A program made the translations under genes and the position numbers. From positions 1-35,371 of the forward strand of contig JACPRN010000179.1 in the NCBI GenBank assembly GCA_016189945.1: a DNA stretch of 35,371 bases, given 5' to 3'. The number at the start of each line of letters is the position of its first letter. Positions within the stretch are counted from its first letter, which is position 1. Positions 15,170-30,805 of the stretch are shown here, in pieces. The DNA comes from Betaproteobacteria bacterium (GTDB lineage Bacteria; Pseudomonadota; Gammaproteobacteria; Burkholderiales; SG8-39). The notes beneath the pieces were generated by a model. The model did no database searches, was not told the DNA's origin, and worked only from the letters and a program-made list of their open reading frames with translations.

Positions 15170-15183
15170 GCGCTTTGGTGATG

Positions 15184-15314
15184 GATGAGGTGGCTATTAG
15201 CGATTGCGGCGAGAATTCTGGGGTTGTATAGGTCTCGTGTTTTCGTGCAGTTGCTTCGCAACTGCACGAAAACACGAGATTGATAAAAGCAAACCCGGCC
15301 TTGCCGGTTCCGGC
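15184..15314 (+). repeat. Dispersed hairpin repeat, copy 1 (dnaK-dnaJ spacer)
   Basis: This is one of three copies of a roughly 130-nt element. It starts GATGAGGTGG, contains a perfect 22-bp inverted repeat (arms 15233-15254 and 15258-15279, beginning TCTCGTGTTTTCGTGCAG, 3-nt TTC loop), and continues GAGATTGATAAAAGCAAAC to GGTTCCGGC. The arms are identical to copy 2; the flanks are similar but diverged. It lies 69 bases after dnaK in the sense direction and ends 47 bases before dnaJ. No U-run follows the stem. Confidence 0.8.
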
Positions 15315-15361
15315 TAGGCGGGGTTCGGTACTTGATTTGCACCGCTTGCGGCTAGGACTAA

Positions 15362-16483
15362 ATGGCGAAACGCGATTACTACGAAGTGCTCGGCGTCAAC
15401 CGCGACGCCGACGAGGAAGCGATCAAGAAGGCCTATCGCAAGCTCGCCATGAAGCACCATCCGGACCGCAATCCGGACGACAAGTCGGCAGAGGAGAAAT
15501 TCAAGGAGGCGAAGGAAGCCTACGAAGTCCTCTCTGACCAGGGCAAGCGCGGCGCCTACGACCGCTACGGCCACGCCGGAGTCGATCCGTCGGCCGGCGC
15601 CGGCTTCGGCGCGGGCGGCTTTTCCAATTTCGCCGACGCGTTCGGCGACATCTTCGGGGACATTTTCGGCCAGGCGCGCGGATCCCGATCGAGCGTCTAC
15701 CGCGGCGCCGACCTGCGCTACAACCTCGAGATCACGCTGGAGCAGGCCGCGCACGGCACCGAGACCAAGATCCGCATCCCGACGCACGAAGCGTGCGACA
15801 ACTGCGGCGGCAGCGGCGCGAAGCCCGGAACCAAGCCCACGACCTGCGCCACCTGCGGGGGCCACGGCCAGGTGCGGCTGCAGCAGGGATTCTTCTCCAT
15901 TCAGCAGACCTGCCCCAAATGCCACGGCACCGGGAAGGTCATCGCCGACCCGTGCGGCGCCTGCGGCGGCGCCGGCCGGGTGAAGAAACAGAAGACCCTT
16001 TCGGTGAAAATTCCGGCCGGCGTCGACGACGGCGACCGGATCCGCCTGAGCAGCGAGGGTGAACCCGGCGTCAACGGTGGGCCCTCGGGCGATCTGTACG
16101 TGCAGTTGCAGATCAAGCCGCATCCGGTGTTCGAGCGCGACCATGACGATCTGCATTGCGAAATGCCGATCAGCTTCGCCGCCTCCGCCCTCGGCGGCGA
16201 GATCGAAATCCCGACCCTCGACGGGGCGGCCAAAATCAGGATTCCGCCCGAGACGCAGTCGGGCAAGGTATTCCGCCTGCGCGGCAAGGGCATCCGCGGC
16301 GTGCGCAGCCACACGACCGGGGACCTGCACTGCCACGTCGTGGTGGAGACGCCGGTCAACCTCACCGAGCGCCAGAAGGAACTGCTGCGCGAGTTCGAAG
16401 CGATCAGCCTGAAGGACCGCGAGCGTCACAACCCGCGCGCCAAGTCCTGGATGGACAAGGTGAAGGAATTCTTCGCGGCGTAG
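15362..16483 (+). CDS. dnaJ: Chaperone protein DnaJ (Hsp40)
   Basis: This 373-residue type I DnaJ has a J domain with HPD at 33-35 ([10 protein letters not shown]), a Gly/Phe-rich linker (about 75-110), and a zinc-binding region with four CxxCxGxG repeats ([32 protein letters not shown]). The C-terminal substrate-binding domains end in [12 protein letters not shown]. It stimulates the DnaK ATPase and delivers substrates. The 247-base spacer from dnaK contains a hairpin and a repeat copy. Its stop lies only 2 bases from the stop of convergent cysS. The ribosome binding site (TAGGA) is moderate. Confidence 0.98.
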
Positions 16484-16485
16484 GT

Positions 16486-17883
16486 TCAGGCCCGACGCCA
16501 GGTCGTTCCCTGGGGTGAATCCTCGAGCACAACGCCCTTCGCCAGCAATTCGACCCGAACTTGATCGGCCCTCTTGAAGTCGCGGATCTTGCGCGCCGCC
16601 TGGCGTTCGGCGATCAAGGCATCGATCTCGGCTTCTGAAATCGCGCTCGCTGCGCCCTCTTCGGCTGCGCCAACCGGCGGCCGGCCTTGCAGAAACGCCG
16701 CGGTGTCGCGCTGCAGCAATCCGAGCACCCCGCCCAGTGCGCGCAGTTGGCGTCCCAGCGCCTTGGGACCGCTGCGGTTCACTTCGTTGGCGAGGTCGAA
16801 CAGCACGGCAACGGCTTCCGGCGTGTTGAAATCGTCGTTCATCGCCTCGCGCAGGCGCCGCGCGTGCGGCTCGTTCCAGTCGGGGGCAGCGGGGTCTTCC
16901 TGGAGCACGCCTTTGAGCGCGGTGTACAGACGCGTCAGCCCGTGGCGCGCATCATCCAGGTGCTGGTCGGAATAGTTGAGGGGGCTGCGGTAGTGCGCGC
17001 GCGCGACGAAAAAGCGCACCACCTCCGCATCGTAGCGCGAGAGCAATTCGCGAATGGTGAAGAAGTTGCCCAGCGACTTCGACATCTTCTCCTCATCGAC
17101 GCGCACGAATCCGTTGTGCATCCAGGTGTTGACGAAATGCCGGCCGGTTGCACCCTCGGATTGCGCGATCTCGTTCTCGTGGTGGGGGAACTGCAGATCC
17201 TGCCCGCCGCCGTGGATGTCGAAATGTTCGCCCAGGAGCGCGCTGGACATCGCCGAGCATTCGATGTGCCAGCCCGGGCGCCCCGGGCCCCAGGGCGAAT
17301 CCCACGCCGGTTCATCGGCCTTGGAATGCTTCCAGAGGACGAAATCGAGCGGATCGCGCTTGGTCGAATTGATCTCGATGCGCTCGCCTGCGCGCAGGTC
17401 CTCGAGCGATTTGCCCGAGAGCTTTCCGTAGCCGCCGAAATCGCGAACGGAGAAATTCACATCGCCGTCGGCCGCCTGGTACGCCAGGCCGCGTTTCATG
17501 AGCCGCTCGATGAGCGAGAGCATCTGCTGCAGGTACTGCGTGGCGCGCGGCTCGAAATCGGGTTTCTGCACGCCGAGCGCGGCGGCGTCCTCGTCCATGA
17601 AGCGGATGAAGCGCGCCGAGAGCTCCCCGATCGATTCGCCGTTTTCCCGCGCGCGCTTGATGATCTTGTCGTCGATGTCGGTGATGTTGCGCACGTAGGT
17701 GACTTCGTGGCCGAGCGCGCGCAGCCAGCGCTGCACGAGGTCGAACACGATCATCACCCGCGCGTGGCCGAGATGGCAGTAGTCATAGACCGTCATGCCG
17801 CAGACGTAGAGCCTGACGCGCGGCGGATCGATCGGAACGAACTCTTCCTTGGTTCGGGTTAGACTGTTGTAGATTCTGAGCAC
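16486..17883 (-). CDS. cysS: Cysteine-tRNA ligase, GTG start
   Basis: This 465-residue class I synthetase charges tRNA-Cys. The zinc and nucleotide site [17 protein letters not shown] includes the HIGH-like HLGH, and the second signature is KMSKSLGN. The zinc-binding [10 protein letters not shown] and [11 protein letters not shown] are also present, followed by a helical anticodon-binding domain. The start is the GTG at 17883, giving (M)[14 protein letters not shown], the expected N-terminus; no ATG precedes the conserved region. The ribosome binding site is weak. It is convergent with dnaJ and divergent from the TPR protein gene. Confidence 0.97.
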
Positions 17884-17941
17884 GGGACGCTCGGAAGATG
17901 AGCCGAATCGACGCGGGCTGCGTCCCGCAAAATGCTGATTA

Positions 17942-17975
17942 TTGTGGAACTTGCGGGCATTCTTGATAGAATGCG
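17942..17975 (+). promoter_or_regulatory. Candidate promoter and inverted repeat in the cysS/TPR divergent spacer
   Basis: TAGAAT (17967-17972) is a good -10, with TTGTGG (17942-17947) 19 bases upstream as a weak -35. The -10 lies within a perfect 7-bp inverted repeat, GCATTCT (17958-17964) and AGAATGC (17969-17975), which could be an operator. The next gene starts at 18008. Assigned by eye. Confidence 0.35.
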
Positions 17976-18007
17976 GGCCAATTGCATGACCAGGAAATTA
18001 TAGCACG

Positions 18008-19078
18008 ATGAACAGGCTCTTCCGCCTTGCAGCGCTCGTCCTTGGCCTCGCGCTGGCGTTCGCCGCGCCGGCCCAGACCGACGAGCTGCAGGAGATCAGC
18101 CGGATGATGAAGCAGGGCCAGCACCCCCAGGCCCTCGATCGGGTCAACGCTTTTCTCGCCACCAGGCCGCGCGATGCGCAAGGGCGGTTCCTCAAGGGGC
18201 TGATCCTCGCCGAGCAGAACAAGATGCCCGAGGCGATCGATATATTCGCGCGCCTGTCGCAGGACTATCCGGAGCTGCCCGAACCCTACAACAACCTCGC
18301 CGTGCTGTACGCAGCTCAAGGGCAATACGAGAAGGCGCGCCAGTCGCTGGAGACTTCGATCCGCACCCATCCGAGCTATGCCACCGCGTACGAGAACCTC
18401 GGCGACGTCTACACCAAGCTTGCCAGCCAGGCCTACGACAAGGCGCTCCAGCTCGACACAGGCAACACCGCCGCTCAGACCAAGCTCTCGCTGATCCGCG
18501 ACTTGATCACCGCGACCGGGCGCGGGCAGCGACCGGGCGCGCGCGCCGAGCCGCCGAAAGTCGCGTTTGCCGGCGGCGATGCCGCGAGGCGCGGCGCGGC
18601 GGCGCCGAAACCGGGAGCGCCGCCCGCCGCTGAATCGAAAGCAGCGGCACCGCCGGCGCCGAAGACGGCGCCTGCGGTGCAAGCCAAGCCCGCCGAGCCT
18701 AAGCCCCCGGCGGCCAAAGCGGCGGAGCCGAGGTCCAGTTCCGATGAGATCGCCGGCGCGGTGCGCGCCTGGGCCGCGGCATGGGCGAAAAAAGACGCCG
18801 ACGCGTACCTCGCCCATTACGCCAGGGACTTCAAGACGCCCAAGGGCGAGCCGCGCGCCGAATGGGAAGCGACGCGGCGCCAGCGCATCGCGGCGCCGAA
18901 AAAAATCGAGGTATCGGTCGAGTCGCTCAAGGTGAGCGTCGTCGACGACAAGACCGCCAACGTCACTTTCCGCCAGAGCTACCGTTCGGACACGCTCAAG
19001 GCGGTAAGCACCAAGACGCTGGTGATGGTCCGCGCCAACGGAAGATGGCTGATCAGGCAGGAGCGGGTGGGAAGCTGA
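18008..19078 (+). CDS. Periplasmic TPR protein with C-terminal NTF2-like domain
   Basis: This 356-residue exported protein has an N-terminal signal peptide (MNRLFRLAALVLGLALAFAAPAQ, cleavage near residue 20-22). About three tetratricopeptide repeats follow (roughly 24-155; EPYNNLAVLYAAQGQYEKAR, TAYENLGDVYTKLASQAYDK), then an Ala/Pro/Lys-rich linker (about 170-245). The C-terminal domain (about 247-356) is NTF2/SnoaL-like: AWAAAWAKKDADAYLAHYARDF and VTFRQSYRSDTLK. This domain is clearly homologous to the C-terminus of the next gene, an L,D-transpeptidase. The stop overlaps the next start (TGATG). A role in peptidoglycan or envelope maintenance alongside that enzyme is likely, but inferred from context. 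Confidence 0.85.
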   Translation: MNRLFRLAALVLGLALAFAAPAQTDELQEISRMMKQGQHPQALDRVNAFLATRPRDAQGRFLKGLILAEQNKMPEAIDIFARLSQDYPELPEPYNNLAVLYAAQGQYEKARQSLETSIRTHPSYATAYENLGDVYTKLASQAYDKALQLDTGNTAAQTKLSLIRDLITATGRGQRPGARAEPPKVAFAGGDAARRGAAAPKPGAPPAAESKAAAPPAPKTAPAVQAKPAEPKPPAAKAAEPRSSSDEIAGAVRAWAAAWAKKDADAYLAHYARDFKTPKGEPRAEWEATRRQRIAAPKKIEVSVESLKVSVVDDKTANVTFRQSYRSDTLKAVSTKTLVMVRANGRWLIRQERVGS

Positions 19079-20274
19079 TGCAGCGGCACTTGGCGATCCT
19101 GCTCCTGCTTCTGGCAATTGCCCTCCCCGGGACTTCCGCCACCGCTCTCGCCAAGACGGGCAAGCCGGCCTCCGGTTCCCCGCCCGAAGCGCTGCTCAAC
19201 CAGGCGTTCGACGAAATCGCCCGGCAGCGGCTCGACACCGCGCTCGGATACATCGACGAGCTGCTGCGCATACGGCCGAATTTTCGCCTGGCGCACATGA
19301 TCAAGGGCGATCTGCTGCTCGCGCGCGCGCGTCCGCTCGCCGCCGTGGGCGACGCGCCGAACGCGCCGGCGGACCGCATCGGCGATCTGCGCGAGGAGGC
19401 GCTTGCGCGCGTGCGCGCCTACCGCGAGCGTCCGGGCGCGGACCAGATTCCGCGCTACCTGCTGCAGTTGCGGCCGGACCAGAAGCACGCGTTTGTGGTC
19501 GACACGGGACGCTCGCGGCTCTATGTATTCGAAAACGTGGGCGGCAGGCCGCGCTTCGTGAGCGATTATTACATCAGCCAGGGCAAGCGCGGCTCGCAGA
19601 AGCTGCGCGAGGGCGACCAGAAGACCCCGATCGGCGTCTACCATGTCACCGCCAGCCTGCCGAAGAAGAAGCTCTCGGACTTCTACGGCGCCGGGGCGTT
19701 CCCGATCAACTACCCCAACGAGTGGGACAAGCGCCAGGGGCGCAACGGGCACGGCATCTGGCTGCACGGAACGCCAAGCGACACCTTCAGCCGCCCGCCA
19801 AGATCGAGCGACGGCTGCGTGGTGCTGTCGAATCAGGACCTGGACGCACTGGCGAAACGCCTGCAGATAGGGCTCACGCCGGTGATCATCAGCGAGCAGA
19901 TCGAATGGCTGCGCGCAGCCGACTGGGACACCGAGCGAAAGCGCCTGCTCGGGGTGCTCGAGCGCTGGCGCGCCGACTGGGAAAGCAGGGACACGGAGCG
20001 ATACCTTGCTCACTATTCGAAGCGTTTCAGCGCCAACGGCCAGGACCTCGCCGCCTGGAGCCGCCACAAGCGGCAGGTCAATGCGGGAAAGAGCTGGATC
20101 AAGGTCACCGTGGACAACGTCGGCTTGTTCCGCAGTCCGGGAAAGGACGAAGTGGTTGTCGTCAATTTCGACCAGAACTACCGCTCGAGCAACCTGTCGA
20201 ATGTCATGCGCAAGCGCCAGTACTGGCTGCGCGAAGGCGCGAACTGGCGCATCATCCACGAAGGCAGCGCCTAG
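19078..20274 (+). CDS. L,D-transpeptidase (YkuD domain) with C-terminal NTF2-like domain
   Basis: This 398-residue protein starts at the ATG overlapping the previous stop. A signal peptide (about 1-25) is followed by a helical, TPR-like segment (about 35-85) and the YkuD catalytic domain (about 135-275): FVVDTGRSRLYVFE, a substrate-site TPIGVYHV, His230 in GIWLHGTP and the nucleophile Cys247 in SSDGCVVLSN. The common S-H/N-G-C motif has Asp here. The C-terminal domain (about 293-398, WRADWESRDTERYLAHYSKRF) matches that of the preceding protein and resembles the Cds6-type C-terminal domain. Enzymes of this family make or edit non-canonical peptidoglycan crosslinks or attach proteins in the periplasm. 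The exact reaction cannot be told from sequence. Confidence 0.9.
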   Translation: MQRHLAILLLLLAIALPGTSATALAKTGKPASGSPPEALLNQAFDEIARQRLDTALGYIDELLRIRPNFRLAHMIKGDLLLARARPLAAVGDAPNAPADRIGDLREEALARVRAYRERPGADQIPRYLLQLRPDQKHAFVVDTGRSRLYVFENVGGRPRFVSDYYISQGKRGSQKLREGDQKTPIGVYHVTASLPKKKLSDFYGAGAFPINYPNEWDKRQGRNGHGIWLHGTPSDTFSRPPRSSDGCVVLSNQDLDALAKRLQIGLTPVIISEQIEWLRAADWDTERKRLLGVLERWRADWESRDTERYLAHYSKRFSANGQDLAAWSRHKRQVNAGKSWIKVTVDNVGLFRSPGKDEVVVVNFDQNYRSSNLSNVMRKRQYWLREGANWRIIHEGSA

Positions 20275-20334
20275 GCGGGGGTGCCTCAATCCCAAGCGCG
20301 CGACGCGAACAATTCTTTTTTTCCGAGGAGAACC

Positions 20335-20901
20335 ATGAGATTGCTGATGCTGCTGATCGCGGCTTTCATCGCCGCTCCCGCCGCTGCCGCCGACAACCCG
20401 CGCGTCGAGCTGAAAACCAGCCAGGGAACGATAGTCGTCGAGATCTACGCCGACCGCGCGCCGAAAACCGCCGCCAACTTTCTGCAGTACGTAAAGGACG
20501 GTTTCTACAACGGGACCATCTTTCACAGGGTCATCGACGGCTTCATGATCCAGGGCGGGGGATTCGATCGCGACATGCGCCAGAAGCCGACCCGCGCCCC
20601 GGTTCAGAACGAGGCCGCGAACGGCATCAAGAATGAAACCGGAACGCTGGCGATGGCGCGCACGCCGGACCCGAATTCGGCTTCGGCGCAGTTCTTCATC
20701 AACGTGAAGGACAACGACTTCCTCAACTACCGCGAAGCGACGCGCCAGGGTTACGGCTACGCGGTGTTCGGCAAGGTCGCGCAGGGAATGGACGTGGTGA
20801 TGAAGATCGCCAAGGTCCCCACCACCACCGCGGGAGGGCATCAGAACGTCCCGCACGAGCCAGTCGTCATCCAGGCCGCGAGCCTCGTCGCGGCAAAATA
20901 G
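20335..20901 (+). CDS. ppiA: Periplasmic peptidyl-prolyl cis-trans isomerase, cyclophilin type
   Basis: The protein is 188 residues. Signal peptide [19 protein letters not shown] is followed by the cyclophilin fold: [42 protein letters not shown] (catalytic Arg in FHRVI), and [18 protein letters not shown]. It catalyses prolyl isomerisation of exported proteins. A strong ribosome binding site (GAGGAG) precedes the ATG at 20335. It is 12 bases upstream of a second, cytoplasmic cyclophilin, from which it clearly shares ancestry. Confidence 0.95.
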
Positions 20902-20913
20902 AGGAGCCACCGC

Positions 20914-21405
20914 ATGGTCAAGCTGCACACCAACTTCGGCGTCATCGCCCTCGATCTCGACCCCGCGCGCGCACCGGAGACGGTGGCGAATTTTCTCGCC
21001 TACGTCGAGAACGGCCATTACGCCAACACGATCTTTCATCGCGTCATCGACGGCTTTATGATCCAGGGCGGCGGATTCGCTCCGGGCATGGCGCAAAAGT
21101 CCAGCGGCGAACCGATCCAGAACGAAGCGTCGAACGGACTGAAGAACGAGCGCTATACGATCGCCATGGCGCGCACATCCGATCCGCATTCGGCCACGGC
21201 GCAGTTCTTCATCAACGTCGCCGACAACGACTTTCTGAACCACCGCGCGCCCTCGGGCGACGGCTGGGGCTACTGCGTCTTCGGCCGGGTCGTCGAAGGC
21301 CAAGACGTGGTCGAGCGCATCAGGGCGGTCAAGACCGGAAGCCGAGGCTATCACCGCGATGTGCCGGTGGACGATGTCCTGATCGAGCGCGCGGAAGTCC
21401 TGTAG
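20914..21405 (+). CDS. ppiB: Cytoplasmic peptidyl-prolyl cis-trans isomerase, cyclophilin type
   Basis: This 163-residue cyclophilin has no signal peptide ([16 protein letters not shown]). It retains the active-site [16 protein letters not shown] and the hydrophobic pocket [17 protein letters not shown], plus a tryptophan in [15 protein letters not shown] good ribosome binding site (GAGGAG) precedes the ATG. It is the cytoplasmic partner of the exported upstream paralogue. Its stop codon lies within the lpxH ribosome binding site (TAGGAG), so the two genes are probably coupled. Confidence 0.96.
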
Positions 21406-21410
21406 GAGCC

Positions 21411-22133
21411 ATGTCCGTCCTTTTCATCTCCGACCTGCATCTGTGCAAATCGAGGCCGGGGATCAACGGGATCTTCCTTGATTTCCTCGCCGGCCGGGCG
21501 CGCCGCGCCCAGGCCCTGTACATCCTCGGCGATCTGTTCGACTACTGGGCCGGGGACGACGATCTGGCCGATGCGCTGAACGCCGCGGTGGCAGAAGCGC
21601 TCGCGCAGTGCGCGGCAGCGATGCCGGTATTCCTGTTGCGCGGCAATCGGGATTTTCTCATTGGCTCGCGCTTTGCCGCGGCCGCCGGGGTCCGCTTGCT
21701 CGACGAACCGGCATTGATAGAAGTCGATCGCTCACCGGCGCTGCTCGCGCACGGCGATGCGCTGTGTACCGACGATGTCGAATATCAGCGCTTTCGCGCG
21801 CAGGTCCGATCGCCCGACTGGATCAACTCTTTCCTGGCAAAGCCGCTTTCGGAGCGCAGACACGAGATCGAAGCTCTGCGCTCGCAGAGCGAGCGCGAAA
21901 AACAGCGCAAGAGCGCCGCGATCATGGACGCGAACGCCGAGGCCGTCGCATCTCTGCTGCGCGCGCACGGCTACCCGCGCTTGATTCACGGCCACACGCA
22001 TCGGCCTGCGCGCCACGAGCACATTGTCGACGGCCGGCACTGCGAGCGCTGGGTGCTCGGCGCCTGGTACAGCGGCGGGAGCGTGCTGGTGTGCGAACCG
22101 AACGGCTGGCGCGTGGACCAACTGGGGATCTAG
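21411..22133 (+). CDS. lpxH: UDP-2,3-diacylglucosamine diphosphatase
   Basis: This 240-residue calcineurin-like metallophosphoesterase hydrolyses UDP-2,3-diacylglucosamine to lipid X and UMP, the fourth step of lipid A synthesis at the inner membrane. All metal-binding blocks are present: FISDLHL (residues 5-11), LGDLFDYW, LRGNRDFL, LAHGDALC and IHGHTHRPARH. The length matches the family. It ends the TPR-LDT-ppiA-ppiB-lpxH operon and is followed within 3 bases by a repeat copy in the same orientation. Confidence 0.96.
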   Translation: MSVLFISDLHLCKSRPGINGIFLDFLAGRARRAQALYILGDLFDYWAGDDDLADALNAAVAEALAQCAAAMPVFLLRGNRDFLIGSRFAAAAGVRLLDEPALIEVDRSPALLAHGDALCTDDVEYQRFRAQVRSPDWINSFLAKPLSERRHEIEALRSQSEREKQRKSAAIMDANAEAVASLLRAHGYPRLIHGHTHRPARHEHIVDGRHCERWVLGAWYSGGSVLVCEPNGWRVDQLGI

Positions 22134-22136
22134 GCT

Positions 22137-22271
22137 CACGAGGTTGGTGTTGACGATTCCGGCGAAGGTCTTGCCGTTGTATTGGTCTCGTGTTTTCGTG
22201 CAGTTGCAACTTCGCAACTGCACGAAAACACGAGATTGAATAACGGCAAAAACAGCCCCTTTGGTTCCGGC
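22137..22271 (+). repeat. Dispersed hairpin repeat, copy 2 (after lpxH)
   Basis: The element starts CACGAGGTTGGTG. The 22-bp perfect inverted repeat (arms 22186-22207 and 22214-22235) has exactly the arm sequence of copy 1, but the loop is 6 nt (AACTTC) rather than 3. The right flank GAGATTGAATAACGGCAAAA leads to GGTTCCGGC. It begins 3 bases after the lpxH stop, in the sense direction, and faces the convergent purF 3' end. No U-run follows, though it may serve as a barrier or 3'-end structure between the convergent genes. Confidence 0.82.
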
Positions 22272-22308
22272 CGCGCCGGTTTAGGATCTCGGGAAACCTA
22301 GATCCCGG

Positions 22309-23823
22309 TCACGCGGCATTCAGGTCGAGCTGGTTGGCCGAAGCGGCGTCATCTGCGTCCTGGCGCGCCGGATTGCGCTGCTGCTCCACCGAAGCGAGAT
22401 ACTCCTTGGTGACGTCGCCGGTGACGTAGAAGCCGTCGAAACAGGAGGTCTCGAACTGGGTGAGGCGCGGGTTGGCGGCCCGCACCGCCGCCTTCAGCGC
22501 ATCGAGGTCCTGGTAGATCACGGCGTCGGCGCCGATTTCGCGCGCGATCTCCTCCTCGGTGCGTCCGGTCGCGATCAGCTCCTGGCGATTCGGCATGTCG
22601 ATCCCGTACACATTGGGGTAGCGCACCGGCGGCGCGGCGGAGGCGAAATAGATCCTGCTTGCGCCGGCATCGCGCGCCATCTGCACGATCTCGCGGCTGG
22701 TGGTGCCGCGCACGATCGAGTCGTCGACGATAAGCACGTCCTTGCCCTTGAATTCCATCGCCACGACGCTCAGCTTCTGCCGCACCGATTTCTTGCGGAT
22801 GGTCTGGCCGGGCATGATGAACGTGCGGCCGATGTATCGATTGCGGATGAAGCCTTCGCGGTAGGGCACGCCCAGCCCGTTGGCGATTTCCATCGCCCCG
22901 GGACGGCTCGTGTCCGGCACCGGGATGACCACATCCACTTTCAGATCGGGCATCGTGCGCCTGATCTTCTGCGCCAGTTGCCGGCCCATGTTGAGCCGCG
23001 CTTCGTAGACCGAAACCCCGTCCATCACCGAGTCGGGCCGGGCAAGGTACACGTACTCGAATATGCACGGCGACAGGAGCGCTTTCTGCGCGCATTGCCT
23101 GCTGTGCACGGCGCCGTCCTCGTCGATGAAGATCGCCTCGCCCGGCGCACAATCGCGCACCAGCTCGAACCCGAGCGCGGTCAGCGCCACGGTTTCCGAA
23201 CACACCACGTGCTCCGGACCCTGCGCGGTCTCGTTGCGTCCGATGACCAGAGGCCGGATGCCGAAAGGATCGCGAAAGGCGAGCACGCCGTAGCCCGCGA
23301 TCATCGCCACCACGGCATAGGCGCCGCGGCAGCGCCGGTGCACGCTCGCCACGGCGGAAAAAATCATTTCCGGATCGAGGCGGTGCCCCTTGGCCGCGAG
23401 CTCGAGCTCATGCGCCAGAACGTTGAGCAGAACTTCGGAGTCGGAGTTGGTGTTGATATGGCGCAGGTCCTGGCGGAACATCTCCTGCTTGAGCGCCTCC
23501 GAATTGGTCAGGTTGCCGTTGTGCGCGAGCACGATTCCGAACGGAGAGTTGACGTAGAACGGCTGCGCTTCGGCCGAGGAAAACGCCGAGCCCGCAGTGG
23601 GGTAGCGGCAGTGCGCGATGCCCATCTCGCCGGGGAGCGAGCGCATGTCGCGCGTGTGGAAGACGTCGCGCACCATGCCCGGGCCCTTGCACATGTGAAA
23701 CGTCTTGCCCTCTGCGGTGACGATGCCCGCGGCGTCCTGCCCGCGATGCTGCAGGAGCAGCAGCCCATCGTAGAGCAACTGATTGACTCCGGACTTCGCA
23801 ACCGCGCCGATTATTCCGCACAT
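22309..23823 (-). CDS. purF: Amidophosphoribosyltransferase
   Basis: PurF makes 5-phosphoribosylamine from PRPP and glutamine, the first step of de novo purine synthesis. The 504-residue protein starts MCGIIGAVAK, where Cys2 becomes the N-terminal nucleophile of the glutaminase domain after Met removal; LLLQHRGQDAAGIVT and VLAHNGNLTN are also conserved. The C-terminal phosphoribosyltransferase domain has VLIVDDSIVRGTTSREIV, the PRPP loop. It lies 13 bases after cvpA, the usual cvpA-purF pairing, at the end of the trp-acc-fol operon. Confidence 0.98.
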   Translation of the reverse strand: MCGIIGAVAKSGVNQLLYDGLLLLQHRGQDAAGIVTAEGKTFHMCKGPGMVRDVFHTRDMRSLPGEMGIAHCRYPTAGSAFSSAEAQPFYVNSPFGIVLAHNGNLTNSEALKQEMFRQDLRHINTNSDSEVLLNVLAHELELAAKGHRLDPEMIFSAVASVHRRCRGAYAVVAMIAGYGVLAFRDPFGIRPLVIGRNETAQGPEHVVCSETVALTALGFELVRDCAPGEAIFIDEDGAVHSRQCAQKALLSPCIFEYVYLARPDSVMDGVSVYEARLNMGRQLAQKIRRTMPDLKVDVVIPVPDTSRPGAMEIANGLGVPYREGFIRNRYIGRTFIMPGQTIRKKSVRQKLSVVAMEFKGKDVLIVDDSIVRGTTSREIVQMARDAGASRIYFASAAPPVRYPNVYGIDMPNRQELIATGRTEEEIAREIGADAVIYQDLDALKAAVRAANPRLTQFETSCFDGFYVTGDVTKEYLASVEQQRNPARQDADDAASANQLDLNAA

Positions 23824-23836
23824 GATGTTTTCACCG

Positions 23837-24325
23837 TCACCGATATCTTAACCGCTGCGCCACGCCTTCAGGCAGGAAAGGCTTGAACGAGAGCACTGCG
23901 GTCTCGATCGGTCCCGCGAGCACCGCCTGGCGCCAAAACGCTTCCCGCGGCAGCGGCGTCAACCCCGCGAGCATCACCGCCACGAGCACGATCACGACGC
24001 CGCGCGCGAGACCGAATACCGCCCCGAGCATGCGGTCGGCAAAGCCCAGGCCAGCGGCGCGCAGCAGCAGCGACAGGATGAGCCCGAGGAAGAAAGAGAC
24101 CAGCAGCACGCCGATGAAGACCGCAAGAAACCCGAGCAGGCCCGCCAGCAGCGGCCCCAGGCTCTCGGGCATCCAGCGCGCGGCATCGCCCGCAAACAGG
24201 GTGGCCAGAACGAACGCCGCGATCCAGCCGGCGATCGACAAAAGCTCGCGCATGAGGCCGCGCAGTATCCCGACCAAAGCGGAAAACCCCAGCACGGCCA
24301 ACACCGCGTAATCGAACCAGGTCAT
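23837..24325 (-). CDS. cvpA: Colicin V production protein homologue CvpA
   Basis: This 162-residue inner-membrane protein has four predicted hydrophobic segments (about 5-25, 28-47, 60-85, 103-123), starting MTWFDYAVLAVLGFSALVGILRGLMRELLS, which includes the conserved RGxxRE pattern of the CvpA family. Its biochemical function is unclear in general; in E. coli it is needed for colicin V export and for envelope stress resistance. Its start overlaps the SPOR protein stop by 4 bases (ATGA), and it is followed by purF. Confidence 0.93.
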   Translation of the reverse strand: MTWFDYAVLAVLGFSALVGILRGLMRELLSIAGWIAAFVLATLFAGDAARWMPESLGPLLAGLLGFLAVFIGVLLVSFFLGLILSLLLRAAGLGFADRMLGAVFGLARGVVIVLVAVMLAGLTPLPREAFWRQAVLAGPIETAVLSFKPFLPEGVAQRLRYR

Positions 24326-24981
24326 CTTCCCGACCCCGCCGCCACCGGAACCAGATCAGCGCGAAGCCCCATGGCTTTCAGTTTTTCCCCTGCCTTTTGG
24401 GCCTCGGCCTTGGCCTCGAAAGGGCCCACCCGCACGCGGGTTTGTTCGCCGCTCTTGACCTTTATGGTCTCGATGTAGCTCTTGAGTCCGGCCGCCGAGA
24501 GCCTCGCCTGCAACAGCTTCGCGTTCCTCGCCTCGGTAAAAGCCCCCACCTGCACCGCCCACGCGTCGCTTCGCTCGGGCGCTGCCGGGGCGCGCTTGCC
24601 CTCGCTTTGGGGCGCAGCGGGCGCCGAGCGCGAGCTTGCGGGCGGGGCTGCAGCGGCAGACTCCCGGGGAGGGGCAGGCTGGGCACTTGGCGGTGGATCG
24701 GGTCTTGCTGCCGCGCCCGGCGCCCCAGGCACATCGCCTTTTGCCGCGCCCGGCTGCAAACCGGCCGCGGGCTCGAAGGCCTTGCCCGGCGGCACCCGCG
24801 GGGTGAACTTTCCCGCGTCCTGACTCGGGATCTGGATGACCAGGTCCTGACCCACCGGTTTGCGCTCGTTCTCGAGGACGATCGGGAATACGATAACGAC
24901 GAAAACGACCAGTGCGATAGCCCCTACCAGACGCCGGCGCGCGCGACGTTGCAAATGGGTAGCGTCTTCGCGTTCTGCCAT
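24322..24981 (-). CDS. SPOR-domain cell-division protein (DedD-like)
   Basis: The 219-residue protein has a short basic cytoplasmic N-terminus (MAEREDATHLQRRARRRL), one transmembrane helix (about 18-36, VGAIALVVFVVIVFPIVL), a Pro/Ala-rich periplasmic linker (about 60-140), and a C-terminal SPOR domain (about 142-215): AWAVQVGAFTEARNAKLLQARL and TRVRVGPFEAKAEAQKAGEKL. SPOR domains bind denuded septal peptidoglycan, so it probably localises to the division site like DedD. It lies 12 bases after folC and overlaps cvpA by 4 bases. The symbol is left empty because several SPOR paralogues look alike. Confidence 0.9.
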   Translation of the reverse strand: MAEREDATHLQRRARRRLVGAIALVVFVVIVFPIVLENERKPVGQDLVIQIPSQDAGKFTPRVPPGKAFEPAAGLQPGAAKGDVPGAPGAAARPDPPPSAQPAPPRESAAAAPPASSRSAPAAPQSEGKRAPAAPERSDAWAVQVGAFTEARNAKLLQARLSAAGLKSYIETIKVKSGEQTRVRVGPFEAKAEAQKAGEKLKAMGLRADLVPVAAGSGR

Positions 24982-24993
24982 ATCGGGATCGGG

Positions 24994-26262
24994 TCAGGAT
25001 CTGGCGGACCCAGCAGCCAGCACATCCGCCACGGTATAGAAGGAGCCAAACACCACAATTCTAGCATCATCGCCTGCGCGATTGCGGGCAATGGCATAGG
25101 CCGCACGCGGCGAATCGCAGGCGATCACCTCCCCCCCCGCGCCCGCCGAGCGGATCGCCTGGGCGACTGCCGCCGCGCTTGCGCCGCGCGGTCCGTCGAG
25201 GCTCACCGCGTACCAGGCGCTCACGCGCCCCGCGAGCGCCCGGCTGACCGCAGCGATGTCCTTGTCGCGCAGCATTCCCAGCACCGCATAGGTGTCGCGA
25301 AAGAACCCCATCTCCGACAGGTTGTGCGCCAGCACCGCCGCGGCCTGCGGATTGTGCGCGACATCGAGCACGACGGCCGGTCTGCCCGGGAGCACCTGGA
25401 AACGCGCCGGGAGCGCAACCGACGCCAATCCCCCGCTGACCGCCTGCGGCCCGACCGGAAGCAGAGCGCGCAGCGCATCGAGCGCAGCGACGCTCGCGGC
25501 TGCATTCTGGAGCTGCGCCGCTCCCCGGAGCGCCGGGAAGGCGAGCCCGTCGACACGGGAGTCGCGATTCCAGCACGACCAGTGTTCGCCCAGGGCCGAC
25601 CAGCCGAAATCGCGGCCAGCCAGGCGCAAATCGGCGCCGATCGCCGCGGCGCGCTCGAGCACGCTCGAGGGCGCCGCCAAGTCGGAGACGATCGCGGGCT
25701 TTCCGCGGCGGAAGATCCCGGCCTTCTCCGCGCCGATCGCCTCGCGCGTACTTCCCAGGTATTCGGTGTGATCGATGTCCACGCCGGTGACAATGGCGCA
25801 GTCGGTGTCGAACGCGTTGACTGCGTCGAGCCGCCCGCCCATGCCGACCTCGAGCACCAGCGCATCAAGAGGCTCGGAGGCGAAAATAAGCCACGCCGCG
25901 AGCGTGCCGAACTCGAAATAGGTGAGCGCCACCTCGCCGCGGGCCGCTTCCACCTGCTCGAATGCCCGGCACAGGCGCTCGTCGCCGACCGCCGTCCCGT
26001 TCAGGCGCACGCGTTCGTTGTATGCGAGCAGGTGCGGCGAGCTGTACAGGCCCACCCGGTAGCCGCCTGAGCGCAGTATCGATTCCAGCATGGCGCAGGT
26101 CGACCCTTTCCCGTTGGTCCCGGCGACGGTGATGATGGGGCCGGCGAACGAGACGCCAAGGCGCTCCTTCACCCGCATCACCCGGTCCAGGCCGAGCGCG
26201 ATCATTTTCGGGTGAATGCGTTCGATGTACTCGAGCCACTCGGGAAGATTCCTGGAAACCAT
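24994..26262 (-). CDS. folC: Dihydrofolate synthase / folylpolyglutamate synthase
   Basis: FolC adds glutamate to dihydropteroate and extends folate polyglutamates. From the ATG at 26262 (MVSRNLPEWLEYIERIHPK) it is 422 residues. The Mur-ligase-type P-loop is TVAGTNGKGSTCAML, followed by LEVGMGGRLDAVN, IDHTEYLGSTREAIGAEKAGIF and the C-terminal VVLDVAHNPQAA. An upstream in-frame ATG (26286) would add eight residues; I prefer 26262 because of the AGGG just before it and better fit to the family. It is preceded by accD (94-base gap). Confidence 0.95.
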   Translation of the reverse strand: MVSRNLPEWLEYIERIHPKMIALGLDRVMRVKERLGVSFAGPIITVAGTNGKGSTCAMLESILRSGGYRVGLYSSPHLLAYNERVRLNGTAVGDERLCRAFEQVEAARGEVALTYFEFGTLAAWLIFASEPLDALVLEVGMGGRLDAVNAFDTDCAIVTGVDIDHTEYLGSTREAIGAEKAGIFRRGKPAIVSDLAAPSSVLERAAAIGADLRLAGRDFGWSALGEHWSCWNRDSRVDGLAFPALRGAAQLQNAAASVAALDALRALLPVGPQAVSGGLASVALPARFQVLPGRPAVVLDVAHNPQAAAVLAHNLSEMGFFRDTYAVLGMLRDKDIAAVSRALAGRVSAWYAVSLDGPRGASAAAVAQAIRSAGAGGEVIACDSPRAAYAIARNRAGDDARIVVFGSFYTVADVLAAGSARS

Positions 26263-26356
26263 GAAGCCCTGGGTCGTTGTGCGCATTGTCGGCGGCGAAG
26301 GCTTCGCGTACCCGGAGCATTCCCCGGAAATCAGCCTCTCATCCGGGCGATCGGCC

Positions 26357-27220
26357 TCAAGCGCTTGGCTGGCGCAGCAGCAGCGCGAGCAGCGCGGCGA
26401 GCTTGTCGCGCAGGTGGCGGCGGTCGACGATCATGTCGATCGCCCCTTTTTCGAGCAGAAACTCTGCGCGCTGAAACCCTTCGGGCAGCGTCTCCCGCAC
26501 CGTCTGCTCGATGACGCGCGGTCCGGCGAATCCGATCAGCGCCTTCGGCTCGGCGATGACGACGTCGCCGATCATGGCAAAGCTCGCCGACACTCCACCC
26601 ATGGTTGGATCGGTAAGAACCGAAATGAAGGGCAGCCGCCGCGCCGAGAGCTGGGCAAGCGCCGCGGTGGTCTTCGCCATCTGCAGGAGCGAGAGCACGC
26701 CTTCCTGCATGCGCGCGCCGCCGGTGGCCGAAACGCACACCAGCGGCAGGTTCTGGTCCAGGCATGCGCGCACCCCGCGCACGAAACGCTCGCCCACCAC
26801 CGATCCCATGGATCCGCCCATGAATTCGAACTCGAACGCCGCAGCGACCAGCGAAATGTTCTTGATCGCGCCCTGGACGATCACGAGCGCATCGCTCTCG
26901 CCGGTGGCCCGGGCGGCTTCTTCCAGGCGGTCGGGATAGCGCTTGCTGTCCTTGAACTTGAGCGCGTCGATCGGAACCACTTCGGCGCCGATTTCGAAGC
27001 GTCCCTCGGTGTCGAGCAGCATGTCGATCCGCTGGCGCGCGCTGATGCGGTTGTGATAGACGCATTTGGGGCAAACGCTGGCATTTTTTTCCAGGTCGGC
27101 GCCATACAGCGTCGCCCCGCAAGCGGGGCACTTGCTCCACAGCCCCTCGGGCACATTCTTCTTCGGTCCCGAGCCGGTGCGCTGAATCTTGGGCGGCAGC
27201 AGTTTTTGCAGCCAGCTCAT
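26357..27220 (-). CDS. accD: Acetyl-CoA carboxylase carboxyltransferase subunit beta
   Basis: AccD pairs with AccA to transfer the carboxyl group from biotin to acetyl-CoA, the first step of fatty-acid synthesis. The 287-residue protein has the N-terminal zinc ribbon CPAC-x15-CPKC (about residues 31-53) and the crotonase-like core with [28 protein letters not shown] and [22 protein letters not shown]. It overlaps trpA by 4 bases (ATGA). The trpA-accD-folC order is common in proteobacteria. Confidence 0.97.
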
Positions 27221-28011
27221 CGGTCCATGGCCTCGCGTACGCTGCGTACGAAAGCCGCCGCCCTGACGGCCGGATCGCTCGGGTCACCCTCGAGTTCGGC
27301 GATCAGGCGGCTGCCGATGATCGCGGCGTCGGCCACCTCGCACACCGCGCGTGCCGTAGCCCCGTCGCGGATGCCGAACCCGACCCCTACCGGCAGGCTC
27401 GTCTGCGTCCGGATGGCGGCGATTCTCGACCCCAGTGCCGATACATCCAGGTGCGACGCGCCGGTGACGCCGGTGAGCGAGACGTAGTAGAGATAGCCGC
27501 TGGCAAGCTTGGCGATCATCGCGATGCGCTCCGGCGTCGTGGTCGGCGCGAGCAGAAAGATCAGATCCATTCCGGCCTCGCGAACCGCTTGGGCAAAATC
27601 GGCACACTCCTCCGGCGGGTAATCCACCACGATCACGCCGTCCACGCCGGCCGCGCGCGCGCCGTCGACAAACTTCGCCTCGCCTGCAGCCTCGATCGGG
27701 TTCGCATAGCCCATCAGCACCACCGGTGTTGCGTCGTCCCTCGCCCTGAATTCGCTCACCATGGCGAGCACGTCTTCGAGCCCGACGTTGTGCCTGAGAG
27801 CGCACTCGCCGGCGCGCTGGATCACCGGGCCGTCTGCCATCGGATCGGAAAACGGCACGCCAAGCTCGATCACATCGGCGCCCGCGGCAACGATCGCTTG
27901 CATCAACGGGACCGTCGCCCGAGGATTCGGGAATCCCGCGGTCAGAAAGGGAATGAGCGCCTTTTTCCCCTGGCGGCGCAGCGCTTCGAATCGGGATGCG
28001 ATGCGGGACAT
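27217..28011 (-). CDS. trpA: Tryptophan synthase alpha chain
   Basis: This 264-residue TIM barrel cleaves indole-glycerol phosphate to indole and glyceraldehyde 3-phosphate and passes indole to TrpB. The conserved [21 protein letters not shown] contains both catalytic residues, Glu and Asp; VVDYPPEE and the phosphate-binding PVGVGFGI are also seen. It lies 8 bases after the methyltransferase gene, which separates it from trpB, and overlaps accD by 4 bases. Confidence 0.97.
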
Positions 28012-28019
28012 GAGGAACT

Positions 28020-28829
28020 CTAGAACAGCCTGAGGTTTGCGCCCGCGCGCAGGGTTTCCTGCGGCTCAAGGGTTCCCGTCGCCTTCGCCAGGCGCGAGCG
28101 CGCCGCAGCAAAATAGTCCTGGTTCAGCTCGAAGCCCGCGTAGGCGCGCGCGTGCCTCGCCGCGGCCACCGCCGCAGTGCCGCTGCCCATGAACGGATCG
28201 AGGATGAGCCCACACGGGGGGCAGCTCGCGAGCACCATGCGCTCGATGATTTCCAGGGGCTTCTGCGTCGGATGGTCCTCGCGTTCCGGGTCCTGGCGGT
28301 GCAGGCGTGTGACGCTCCAGACGTCCTTGGGGTTGTAGCCGATCTCGAGCCACTTTTTGCCCACAAAGATCGAGCGCGAGCGCGCCTTCTTCGTCGCCGC
28401 ATCGTAGGGGATTCGCACGCTGTCCAGGTTGAAATAATACTCGCGCGACTTGGCGAACAAGCCGATCGTATCGTGCACCGACGAGTACTTTCGCGTCGAG
28501 CCGCCCATGCTGGGCACGCGCCGGTCCCAGATGATCTCATTCACCATCAGCATGCGCGTCTTCAGGTAGCAGAACACCTCGGGCGAATGCTGCCAGGTGA
28601 GAAACACGTACAGGCTTGCATTGGCTTTCAGCTTGGGCAGGACCGCATCGATCCAGCGCCGGCTGAAGGCAAAATACTCCTCCCCCGAGAGGCAGTCCGA
28701 ATCATTGCCGTAGTCCTTGCCCAGCCCGTAGGGCGGATCGGCGATCACCAGGTCGACGCTTGCGTCGGCGAGCCGTCCAAGGCCCGCAAACAGGTCCTCG
28801 TTGTAGAGCGAAGCGCTCGGCCCGTTCAA
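28020..28829 (-). CDS. Orphan DNA methyltransferase within the trp operon
   Basis: This is a 269-residue amino-methyltransferase (N6-adenine or N4-cytosine). Catalytic motif [13 protein letters not shown], is at 31-41 and the AdoMet-binding motif [27 protein letters not shown], at about 210-235. The order IV then I is that of the beta class. HPTQKP (186-191) is the usual motif just before it. The overall layout resembles E. coli YhdJ. I place the start at the TTG (28829-28827) overlapping the trpB TGA as TTGA, with GGGAG as ribosome binding site; upstream extension would run into trpB. No restriction enzyme gene is nearby, so it is solitary. A methyltransferase between trpB and trpA is known from other betaproteobacteria. 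The target sequence cannot be read from the protein. Confidence 0.92.
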
Positions 28830-30037
28830 CTTCGCTCCCTCGCGTGTTCCATTACGGTGTGCATGTCCTTGTCGCCGCGCCCGGACAGATTGACGAGCAG
28901 GAGCGCCTCGCGCGGCATCGACGGGGCGATGCGGGCGGCGTAGGCAAGCGCGTGCGCCGATTCGAGCGCCGGGATGATGCCCTCGTAGCGGCACAGATCG
29001 TGAAACGACGCGAGCGCTCCGCGGTCATCGACGGTGACGTACTCGGCCCGCCCCGAATCCTTCAGCCAGGCGTGCTCCGGACCGACGCCGGGGTAATCGA
29101 GCCCCGCTGAAATGGAATGGGTCTCCAGGATCTGCCCATGCCCGTCCTGCAGCACGTAGGTGCGGTTGCCGTGCAACACGCCTGGCTTGCCGGCGGCGAG
29201 CGAGGCCGCGTGTTTGCCGCTCGCAAGCCCGAAGCCCGCCGCCTCGACCCCGATCAGCTTGACTCCGGCGTTCCGGATGTAAGGGTAGAAGATCCCCATG
29301 GCGTTGGAACCCCCGCCCACGCAGGCGATGACCGCGTCGGGCTGGCGGCCGAACATCTCCGCCATCTGCGCCAGGCATTCGCGCCCGATCACCGACTGGA
29401 AATCGCGCACCATCATCGGATAGGGATGCGGACCGGCGACGGTGCCGATGATGTAGAAGGTGTTGGCGACGTTCGTGACCCAGTCGCGCATCGCCTCGTT
29501 GAGCGCGTCCTTGAGCGTTTTCGATCCTGACTCGACCGGCACCACCGAAGCCCCCAGCAGGGCCATCCGCTCGACGTTCGCCGCCTGGCGCTTCACGTCC
29601 TCGGAGCCCATGTAGACCACGCATTGCATGCCGTAGCGAGCGGCCACGGTGGCCGCGGCCACGCCGTGCTGGCCGGCACCGGTCTCGGCGATCACGCGCG
29701 GCTTGGCCATGCGCCGCGCGAGCAGCGCCTGTCCGACCGTGTTGTTGATCTTGTGCGCGCCGGTGTGGTTGAGATCCTCGCGCTTGAGCAGAATCTGCGC
29801 GCCGCCGAGCACCTCCGACCAGCGCTTGGCGTGGTAGATCGGACTGGGGCGCCCGACGTAGTGCTTCAGCTCGTATTCGAACTCGGCGACGAACGCCGGG
29901 TCGTTGCGCGCCCTTTCGTAGGCGCGCTTGAGCGCCTCGAGCGCCTCGATCAGCGTCTCGGAGACGAACACCCCCCCATACGGGCCGAAATGCCCCCGCC
30001 GGTCGGGAAGATCGTATGGAAGGTCATTGATCTGCAC
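28826..30037 (-). CDS. trpB: Tryptophan synthase beta chain, GTG start
   Basis: TrpB condenses indole and serine using pyridoxal phosphate. From the GTG at 30037 it is 403 residues, starting (M)[21 protein letters not shown]. The PLP lysine is in HTGAHKINN, the catalytic glutamate in [10 protein letters not shown], and the phosphate loop is [13 protein letters not shown] seven bases before the GTG is a good ribosome binding site, and no in-frame ATG fits. The start lies inside trpF (14-base overlap), implying coupling. The stop overlaps the methyltransferase TTG. Confidence 0.96.
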
Positions 30038-30647
30038 ACCTGACTCCCGCGATGAACGCCGCAATCTTCGTTGCTTCCTTGATGCCCTTGCCCGACTCGA
30101 CTCCGCTCGAAACGTCGACCGCGAACGGGCGCACCCGCCGCACCGCCTCACTCACGTTGTCGACGGTGAGGCCGCCCGAAAGGACCAGCGGCCGCTCGAG
30201 GCGCCGCGGCACCAGGTCCCAGTCAAAAGCGGTTCCCGTGCCGCCGTACGCGCTGTCGTGAAAGGCGTCGACCAGCCATGCGGACGCGGCAGCGAAGGGA
30301 GCGAAGTATTCTAGCAAATCCAGCCCGGGTCTCATGCGCGCCGCGCGCAGGTACGGCCGCGCGAACCGCGAGCAAAACTCGGGGCTTTCCTCGCCGTGAA
30401 ACTGCAGCAGCGCGTGCGGAACATGCGCGAGCACGGCTTCGACCTCCTCGATGCCCGGATTCACGAATACGCCGACCGGCGAGACGAACGCGGGCAGCGC
30501 GCGCGCAATGGCGCCGGCGCGCTCGGGCTCGATGAACCGCTCGCTCGGCCGCCAGAAAATGAATCCGATCGCATCGGCTCCCGCGCTCGCAGCCGCTCGG
30601 GCATCGGCCTCGCGCGTGATGCCGCAGATCTTGATGCGAGTTCTCAT
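30024..30647 (-). CDS. trpF: Phosphoribosylanthranilate isomerase
   Basis: This 207-residue TIM barrel isomerises phosphoribosylanthranilate in tryptophan synthesis. The catalytic cysteine is in [12 protein letters not shown] and the catalytic aspartate in [28 protein letters not shown] is also conserved. The ATG at 30647 has GAGG as ribosome binding site. It is the first gene of the trpF-trpB-MTase-trpA-accD-folC-SPOR-cvpA-purF run. Repeat copy 3 ends about 20 bases before its start, so any promoter must lie in or next to the repeat, or transcription comes from truA. Confidence 0.96.
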
Positions 30648-30667
30648 GCATTGCCTCGTGTATCAAT

Positions 30668-30797
30668 CCGAATCAGCGGTGCTGGTTTTGCCTTTACTCA
30701 ATCTCATCGTTGTGCAGTGCATTGCACGCAATGCACTGCACAACGATGAGACGTATTTAAGAACCCAAATTGCCACCAAATTTCGTCAACCCTCGTC
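30668..30797 (-). repeat. Dispersed hairpin repeat, copy 3 (truA-trpF spacer), different arms
   Basis: Read on the minus strand it starts GACGAGGGTTGACGA and contains a 24-bp perfect inverted repeat (arms 30751-30728 and 30725-30702, 2-nt spacer). The right flank GAGATTGAGTAAAGGCAAAA then CAGCACC matches copy 2 closely. The arms share TCTC, GTGCAGT and TTGC with copies 1 and 2 but otherwise differ, including an inserted TGCA-like segment, yet remain perfectly complementary. It begins 8 bases after the truA stop, in the sense direction. Confidence 0.8.
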
Positions 30798-30805
30798 TGA
30801 CAATG

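Follow-up and report, generated by a model that had tools for sequence, protein, structure and literature searches.

What keeps the two arms of a long DNA hairpin identical within every copy of a repeat, when the arms themselves differ from copy to copy? The question is raised by contig JACPRN010000179.1 of a Betaproteobacteria bacterium (assembly GCA_016189945.1), whose whole analysed stretch of 35,371 nucleotides (nt) we call the window. The initial annotation had located three copies of an undescribed dispersed repeat there, each with a perfect hairpin of 22-24 bp, and had offered a miniature inverted-repeat transposable element (MITE), a unit mobilised by a RAYT transposase, and a structured RNA as explanations. 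We found that the repeat represents an element family that is real, abundant and absent from the libraries searched. On balance, and with restrained confidence, we regard its members as small non-autonomous mobile elements resembling repetitive extragenic palindromes (REPs) and MITEs, which would insert at TTAG, be moved in trans by a putative HUH transposase and have their arms kept identical by hairpin-templated repair. In the window the element occupies the following places, the unit ends having been set by comparison of copies and the hairpins by a hairpin scan:

about 15179..15317, + strand: copy 1, whole unit
15233..15279, + strand: copy 1, perfect hairpin with 22 bp arms and a 3 nt loop
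22134..22284, + strand: copy 2, whole unit
22186..22235, + strand: copy 2, perfect hairpin with 22 bp arms and a 6 nt loop
about 30652..30805, - strand: copy 3, whole unit, right end eroded
30702..30751, - strand: copy 3, perfect hairpin with 24 bp arms and a 2 nt loop

No arm of the three copies contains a mismatch, and the flanks can be aligned among all three. The annotated places and stem lengths were confirmed, while the annotated extent of 130-135 nt proved somewhat short of the unit ends given above. Set to require 14 net pairs with no more than 2 mismatches and a loop of 2-14, the scan returned copies 1-3 as the only hairpins of the window, and a laxer scan added 3 hairpins of 12 net pairs that are unrelated to the element in sequence. 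Copy 1 lies in what we take, from the translations, to be the dnaK-dnaJ gap, copy 2 in a convergent gap presumably between lpxH and purF, and copy 3 in a presumed truA-trpF gap. The tetranucleotide to the left of copy 1 is TTGG (15175-15178), which departs from the TTAG target by one base, and the copy ends in CTAG (15314-15317). In copies 2 and 3 the TAG on the left is the stop codon of the upstream gene (22131-22133 and 30806-30808, respectively), and copy 2 ends in TTAG (22281-22284).

Abundance and anatomy of the element

The window belongs to a metagenome-assembled genome (MAG) of 3.55 Mb in 328 contigs, G000, which was compared with three relatives of the same genus, G344, G345 and G346; the hosts are uncultured groundwater bacteria. 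A loose pattern, GTCTC-N(17-47)-GAGATTGA, matched G000 89 times (41+48), its reversed form never (0+0), and any other genome in a 300-genome sample of the order at most 10 times. Of 29 distinct matches at 30 loci of G000, 28 have at least 13 of their outer 15 positions paired; L009 is the sole non-hairpin, the others being hairpins by eye. A stricter pattern gave 170 matches in G346, 42 in G000, 2 in G345 and 0 in G344, and it was found in 3 of 98 genomes of the family, all from the window's genus. The restriction to one genus that this pattern suggested was overturned by a covariance model built from 12 copies. With at most 150 candidates scored per genome, all 150 reached E<=0.01 in G000 and likewise in G346, whereas 148 did so in G345 and 24 in G344; given this ceiling, and because the same hairpin may match on both strands, these are not copy numbers. 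At E<=1e-8, with 33 candidates scored per genome and stricter filters, the model matched 17 of the 98 genomes in 7 of 26 genera. Twenty out-of-genus places were inspected, and 9 of them, in two genera, share the flanks by eye (L274-L277, L282, L283, L290, L292 and L293), the stem base TCCC...GGGA replacing TCTC...GAGA in 6; the remaining 11 have long hairpins whose flank similarity is weak, one-sided or absent. L289 of G306 has no clear flank in common with the element. L281 (G303) and L288 (G307) carry extended, partly mismatched stems of 72-74 nt with other flanks and may represent a sister family from a different genus.

In the genome_contigs collection the strict pattern occurred in at least 96 stretches, 86 of them from two MAGs of the genus, JACQTO01 (Betaproteobacteria bacterium NC_groundwater_1413, corresponding to G346) and MEQZ01 (RIFCSPLOWO2_02_FULL_65_20, corresponding to G345), and 10 from other groups. 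Among the matches listed in the two MAGs, 85 of 93 likewise have 13 or more paired positions out of the outer 15; merely 6-10 of 20 positions are paired in the 10 stretches of other groups and in the single viral stretch, the one pattern match of the viral_contigs collection, which has no hairpin. Plasmid and phage collections gave no match to copy 2, the only query used there. Rfam models applied to the window returned nothing above gathering except a tRNA at 7176-7249, and on 5 loci with copies they returned 20 matches at E<=1, all microRNA models below cut-offs. Searches of the open-licence PMC literature showed no description of the element family. The predicted dispersed, undescribed family with many copies genome-wide is thus borne out: the search of the full genome and its relatives found many more copies than the original three, and no known named repeat family was found to cover them.

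Aligned copies define a unit of about 150 nt, composed of a left flank of about 54 nt, a near-perfect hairpin of mostly 46-52 nt with a stem of mostly 22-25 bp, and a right flank of about 49 nt that terminates in CTTAG. Their consensus is [TTAG] TCRCTTACAAG..GTTGACnnAnTTGGCGAAGATTTGGTTTCTAAATTCG - TCTC(stem)GAGA - TTGATAAACGGCAAAACCAGC..TTGGTTCCGGCTCGTCCGGC[TTAG], and in the G346 copies the information content has dropped to background at about 60 nt on the left of the hairpin and about 50 nt on its right. In most of the copies inspected the hairpin foot reads ...CG/TCTC or ...GG/TCTC, GGTC marking one large subgroup. By inspection, the left end TCRCTTAC.. and the right end ..CCGGCTTAG are not complementary, so the element has no terminal inverted repeats, and its single hairpin is central, about 50 nt from either end, rather than one of two near the ends. 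Three regulatory signals were rejected. The hairpin is followed by TTGATAAACGGCAAAA-like sequence with no T run, unlike an intrinsic terminator; GG and GC of a sigma-54-like promoter (GGC...TTTGC, left flank) stand one base too close, and the spacing of a -35/-10 promoter is wrong, both measured against the consensus as we assume it to be.

Several copies are rearranged. At L013 180-330 (G000, contig C50), where a contig ends, a single hairpin is followed by tandem repeats of the right flank; at L141 1330-1375 (G346) a second hairpin whose own left flank is absent, and which is a unit truncated at the hairpin, abuts the right end of the first element. Chimeras or broken tandems are seen at L191, L207, L258 and L259. 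Seven G000 contigs (C2, C36, C50, C62, C73, C77 and C81) end about 175-350 bases from a copy, so the repeats may break MAG assembly and may help explain the fragmented assemblies of these genomes.

Paired change of the hairpin arms

Stem perfection was scored in two partly overlapping sets of copies, both of which required TCTC..GAGA ends and at most 4 mismatches and thereby favour good stems. The first comprises 128 oriented copies and four species; 102 of these copies have no mismatch in the scored pairs, and 32 mismatches occur in 2083 pairs (GT 8, AC 12, other 12). In the second, with 198 copies and two species, 149 copies are free of mismatches, of which there are 63 in 3157 pairs (AC 27, GT 17, other 19). 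Arms diverge by 20-43% between copies of the larger set, as against 0.3-3.1% within a copy, and stems in the 128-copy set are typed by species. In a control that relied on the flanks only, hidden Markov models (HMMs) were trained on the flanks of stem-bearing copies and run over 400 kb of G346 (E<=1e-5). The left-flank HMM gave 26 matches, 24 of which adjoin at least 15 net pairs, one 12 pairs and one a contig end, and for the right-flank HMM the figure was 35 of 38, the other three showing 12 pairs, an interrupting second hairpin and no hairpin, respectively. The covariation score of 12 aligned copies was 0.212, compared with 0.055 after shuffling (0 of 500 shuffles as high, the shuffle ignoring relatedness) and at most 0.027 after sliding, and all 12 have the same G-T pair immediately beyond the scored stem (GTCTC..GAGAT). 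The element is an unusually clear case of paired arm evolution.

Paired-base covariation is the standard proof of a functional RNA structure. The strength of the covariation would indeed be expected of a cis-acting structured RNA, involved in mRNA stability, RNase III processing or attenuation, whose selected hairpin was copied around the genome and kept between genes as functional, and so would the intergenic position and the sites common to several species. A simple gene caller covered about 824 kb (668 genes, 87% coding; at least one window call, at 18979-21354, is doubtful) and placed 0 of 79 placeable copies inside an open reading frame (ORF), with one more at an edge and three overlapping a called gene end by 24-28 nt. 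Thirty-three of the 79 lie between two genes in the direction of the element and hence would be transcribed, and 15 in convergent gaps; however, 22 run against both neighbours and 9 lie between divergent genes, which speaks against such an RNA. RNAalifold predicts just one more short helix in the flanks, of 5 pairs, and copies without the hairpin persist with recognisable flanks. Selection on the RNA of one strand would tolerate G-U and be expected to leave an excess of G-T mismatches, but G-T is not in excess over A-C in either copy set. The mismatched pairs therefore disfavour the structured RNA proposed in the initial annotation, which we consider unlikely.

We then compared elements at shared sites of different species, which formed 16 pair rows, 11 in the same orientation and 5 in opposite orientation. 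In the 11 same-orientation rows, 203 stem pairs are unchanged, 41 show two-sided Watson-Crick changes and 1 another change, with 28 gap columns. One site accounts for 3 of these rows, and its occupants (L159 in G000, L252 in G346 and L079 in G345) have three different stems with zero one-sided differences. Such changes could also reflect wholesale replacement, in which old copies are lost and new copies insert with their own stems at the same hot spots. The species-typed stems fit this explanation, as do the 5 opposite rows of 16 and the 8 of 11 same-orientation rows whose flanks stay within the 95% range of random cross-species pairs; with few high-identity flanks and some opposite orientations, part of the site sharing is attributable to independent insertion. 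However, the three rows above the 95th percentile of flank identity (L067/L006, L244/L152 and L159/L079) contain 10 two-sided and 0 one-sided stem changes, and replacement alone does not explain that, within one genome, arms match at 97-99.7% in a copy and diverge by 20-43% between copies. Replacement as the source of the paired changes thus seems to us rather improbable, and the shared sites are due in some cases to descent and in others perhaps to repeated insertion in the same gap.

Hairpin-less copies with recognisable flanks were found at L156 (7231), L161 (3200), L144 (15010), L149 (2853), L147 (15111) and L151 (799), and further ones at L198, L180, L184, L219 (2981) and L235. Their junctions differ slightly, which fits deletion of the palindrome near its base and not a hairpin-free ancestor. 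According to the preferred reading of a mobile element with repaired arms, replication would stall at the hairpin and one arm would be copied from the other by quasipalindrome template switching; such copying would produce paired substitutions without wobble intermediates. The hairpin would sometimes be deleted at its base, leaving behind flanks of the kind seen in the hairpin-less copies. We infer template-switch correction, together with single-strand transposition and the absence of an RNA function. The DNA behaves as a mobile repeat, and yet its hundreds of copies covary in textbook fashion, wobble pairs not being in excess. If the reading is correct, they would provide a large natural data set on template switching versus selection as the source of stem covariation, and a warning for covariance-based RNA discovery in bacteria.

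Insertion at TTAG and the search for the mover

One clean empty site and the tandem copies point to insertion 3' of TTAG. With junctions marked by slashes, the filled site in G346 (L244, 2452) reads AATTAG/TCGCTTGCGGG...GCCGCTTAAG/GAGG, or in short form AATTAG/TCGC...CGCTTAAG/GAGG, and the empty site in G000 (L152) reads AATTAG/GAGG. The right end of L244 reads CTTAAG, one base off the CTTAG consensus, so the right junction is uncertain by about 1 base. Tandem copies have one TTAG in common (L127 8862/9014 and L180). The comparison of orthologous loci for empty sites thus delivered one clean TTAG site, while boundaries at the other sites are blurred: at truA/trpF, G346 has the element in the same orientation with another stem and G344 and G345 have none; the dnaK/dnaJ gap has no hairpin in G346 (L119) and G344 (L122); and the sites in L141 and L138 likewise differ in presence and absence. 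TTAG at both ends is compatible alike with HUH peel-and-paste ends and with a 4 bp target duplication. Left and right tetramers show no visible co-variation, and the left-end motif was found in a minority of the G346 copies (96 without).

An upstream co-oriented gene ends within 90 nt of 31 copies, and in 16 its stop codon lies 50-54 nt before the hairpin. Thirteen of these 16 stops are TAG and 3 TGA, against a background of TAG in 190 of 644 genes (binomial P 2.8e-5). The TTAG is therefore often the TAG stop codon of a gene, and many copies lie directly behind a stop codon. With TTAG, often in a stop codon, as its insertion signature, the family would be an unusual addition to the small mobile elements.

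Insertion would take place immediately 3' of the TTAG tetranucleotide, the element itself ending in ...CTTAG. A putative single-strand HUH transposase (Y1, RAYT-type) acting in trans may use the folded hairpin for recognition and cleave behind the TTAG of either end. Given TTAG-type ends, an HUH (Y1) transposase is the simplest enzyme to propose, and the RAYT conserved in the genus is merely a candidate; as to whether the mover is an HUH enzyme at all, we regard the chances as evenly balanced. A more specific proposal, which we offer tentatively and consider less likely than not, is a new, family-wide class of single-hairpin TTAG-to-TTAG passengers that a vertically inherited RAYT would mobilise in trans in single-stranded form. 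Their hundreds of stems would evolve by DNA-hairpin-templated double substitution and form a natural record, across whole genomes, of quasipalindrome correction, with covariation arising in the absence of RNA selection.

Y1 transposases (PF01797) occur at 9 places and in all four species of the genus. Scanning these loci for hairpins with arms of at least 12 revealed one at a single locus, L071 (G345), where a hairpin of the GGGGACAGACCACG / GGGGACAG type lies directly downstream of the RAYT gene, near 2150-2197; this hairpin is likely the repeat proper to that RAYT, an indication that the enzyme acts on a different family. A short RAYT (L073/L074/L075) is 64-70% identical among G344, G345 and G346, with relatives in other genera at up to 59%, and no element was found in 6 loci of this candidate, one of them cut by a contig end. 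Across the family genomes, a close RAYT (E<=1e-50) is present in 12 of 17 element-positive and 20 of 81 element-negative genomes (Fisher P 5e-4), a comparison in which the threshold was picked after seeing the data, the genomes are not independent and the positives include the differing hairpins L281, L288 and L289, so the genus-conserved RAYT is only a lead. The 127 left-flank matches in about 1.07 Mb, duplicates included, contain 18 without 8 uninterrupted foot pairs; what follows them is for the most part a stem that is shifted or interrupted, a tandem, a nested repeat or the end of the contig.

A number of results weigh against the preferred reading, in addition to the few high-identity flanks and the opposite orientations at shared sites. 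The count of further pair types in the 12 aligned copies is not above that of the shuffles (142 of 500 as high). Clean empty sites number one, with a right end one base off, and the remaining filled/empty pairs are blurred by divergence. At the 9 Y1_Tnp/RAYT loci of the genus, no element lies closer than about 1.5 kb. Of the 81 genomes that have no model match, 20 contain the candidate RAYT at E<=1e-50, and it was not found in G000, where the only match is a different protein, 37% identical. No longer, gene-carrying version of the element was recognised in the 140 nt read after each foot-less hit, a reading that included no ORF search. No orientation bias was detected on contig GC skew in these draft MAGs (38 leading and 28 lagging, P 0.27). 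Finally, the distance of about 54 nt from TTAG to the hairpin is unlike the ends of IS200/IS605 and REP elements as excerpts of PMC6006769 describe them. For the original suggestion of a MITE-like or RAYT-mobilised unit the outcome is therefore divided: the TTAG insertion speaks for it, and the lack of inverted-repeat ends and of elements beside the Y1 loci speaks against it.

Two observations concern neighbouring genes. The short RAYT at L268-L270, in three species, adjoins one gene at least in G344 and G345, presumably glutathione-transferase-like, has no hairpins nearby and is a possible domesticated transposase. A metZ-like gene, which we take to encode O-succinylhomoserine sulfhydrylase, lies between lpxH and purF in G346, appears in G344 and G345 and is missing at that place in G000 (window 22134-22308 versus L120, L122 and L123). 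On either side of the gene G346 carries an element, the two being inverted relative to each other; loss of the gene in G000 by their recombination was rejected on account of this inversion.

Comparison with other hairpin families and known systems

Other hairpins accompany the element. A second family in G346 has 7 nt loops and stems of about 21-22 bp that vary in sequence (AACCG..CGGTT, GATCGGCGATT..AATCGCCGATC), several of its members forming close pairs resembling bacterial interspersed mosaic elements:

L131, 12410-12546: second hairpin family, G346
L132, 7776-7913: second hairpin family, G346
L143, 11939-12077: second hairpin family, G346
L127, 2727-2775: second hairpin family, G346
L136, 9280-9329: second hairpin family, G346

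A GGGGTCAGAGTAAC hairpin is nested in the element's own hairpin at L219 (about 6057-6166) and L129 (about 18870-18960), both in G346. Hairpins of the GGGGTCAG/GGGGACAG type are present repeatedly in G000, G345 and G346; they agree with the motif GGGGWSAS, which excerpts of PMC3733652 give as that of RAYT (TIRYT) terminal repeats.

An integron attC-like site, or another site-specific recombination site with TTAG as crossover core, would resemble the element in being folded, in having a variable stem between fixed boundary letters and in forming tandem copies with one common core. However, the stems are mostly perfect and lack extrahelical bases, the units are mostly single and dispersed, and R'/R'' boxes are absent by comparison with the consensus that we assume for them, which makes this explanation extremely unlikely. 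With bacterial MITEs such as Correia, Nezha and ERIC, whose layouts we likewise take as generally understood, the element shares its short, non-autonomous, dispersed and intergenic character, but it has an internal palindrome in place of terminal inverted repeats.

The similarity to REPs and REPINs (RAYT, TnpA-REP) is closer, since the element is high-copy, intergenic, palindromic, taxon-restricted and apparently non-autonomous, and RAYT genes are present in the same genomes. Membership in the known GTAG- or CGTC-tagged REP superfamily, with RAYT-type transposition, could be argued from these features and from CGTC at the hairpin foot of many copies. In the excerpts of PMC6006769, GTAG-REPs carry a GTAG/GTGG tetranucleotide 0-2 nt 5' of the hairpin foot, whereas the element is one hairpin of mostly 22-25 bp in a 150 nt unit, has no GTAG at its foot and does not flank the RAYT loci. 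For CGTC repeats, excerpts of Di Nocera et al. 2013 (PMC3733652) describe 8-9 bp stems and an unpaired CGTC tag; a dedicated transposase is known neither for these repeats nor for the element. The element differs in its stem length, in a tag lying partly inside the stem with its TC paired, in a large subgroup that reads GGTC, in its long conserved flanks and in stems that change in pairs. Membership is accordingly very unlikely. The initial impression that the layout matches neither REP nor attC holds for the GTAG and CGTC feet, the stem length, and the attC boxes and bulges alike.

IS200/IS605 elements have a hairpin and a target tetranucleotide at their ends (excerpts of PMC6006769). The element is similar in its fixed tetranucleotide at the left and right ends, in a folded hairpin available for recognition, and in an insertion consistent with the lack of a longer target duplication, TTAG being restored at the one empty site; it differs in that its only hairpin is central, where IS200/IS605 elements have a hairpin close to either end, in that it carries no gene for a transposase, and in that no strand bias was detected. 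Quasipalindrome template switching has been described for RNA genes (excerpts of PMC8794818), and a correction of this kind would account for perfect stems, simultaneous two-sided changes and the lack of wobble intermediates, except that its substrate in the present case would be mobile copies dispersed by the hundreds in bacterial genomes. The element differs from GTAG-REPs, CGTC-REPs and MITEs with terminal inverted repeats in their defining features and is best read as a REP/MITE-like passenger with an unusual anatomy.

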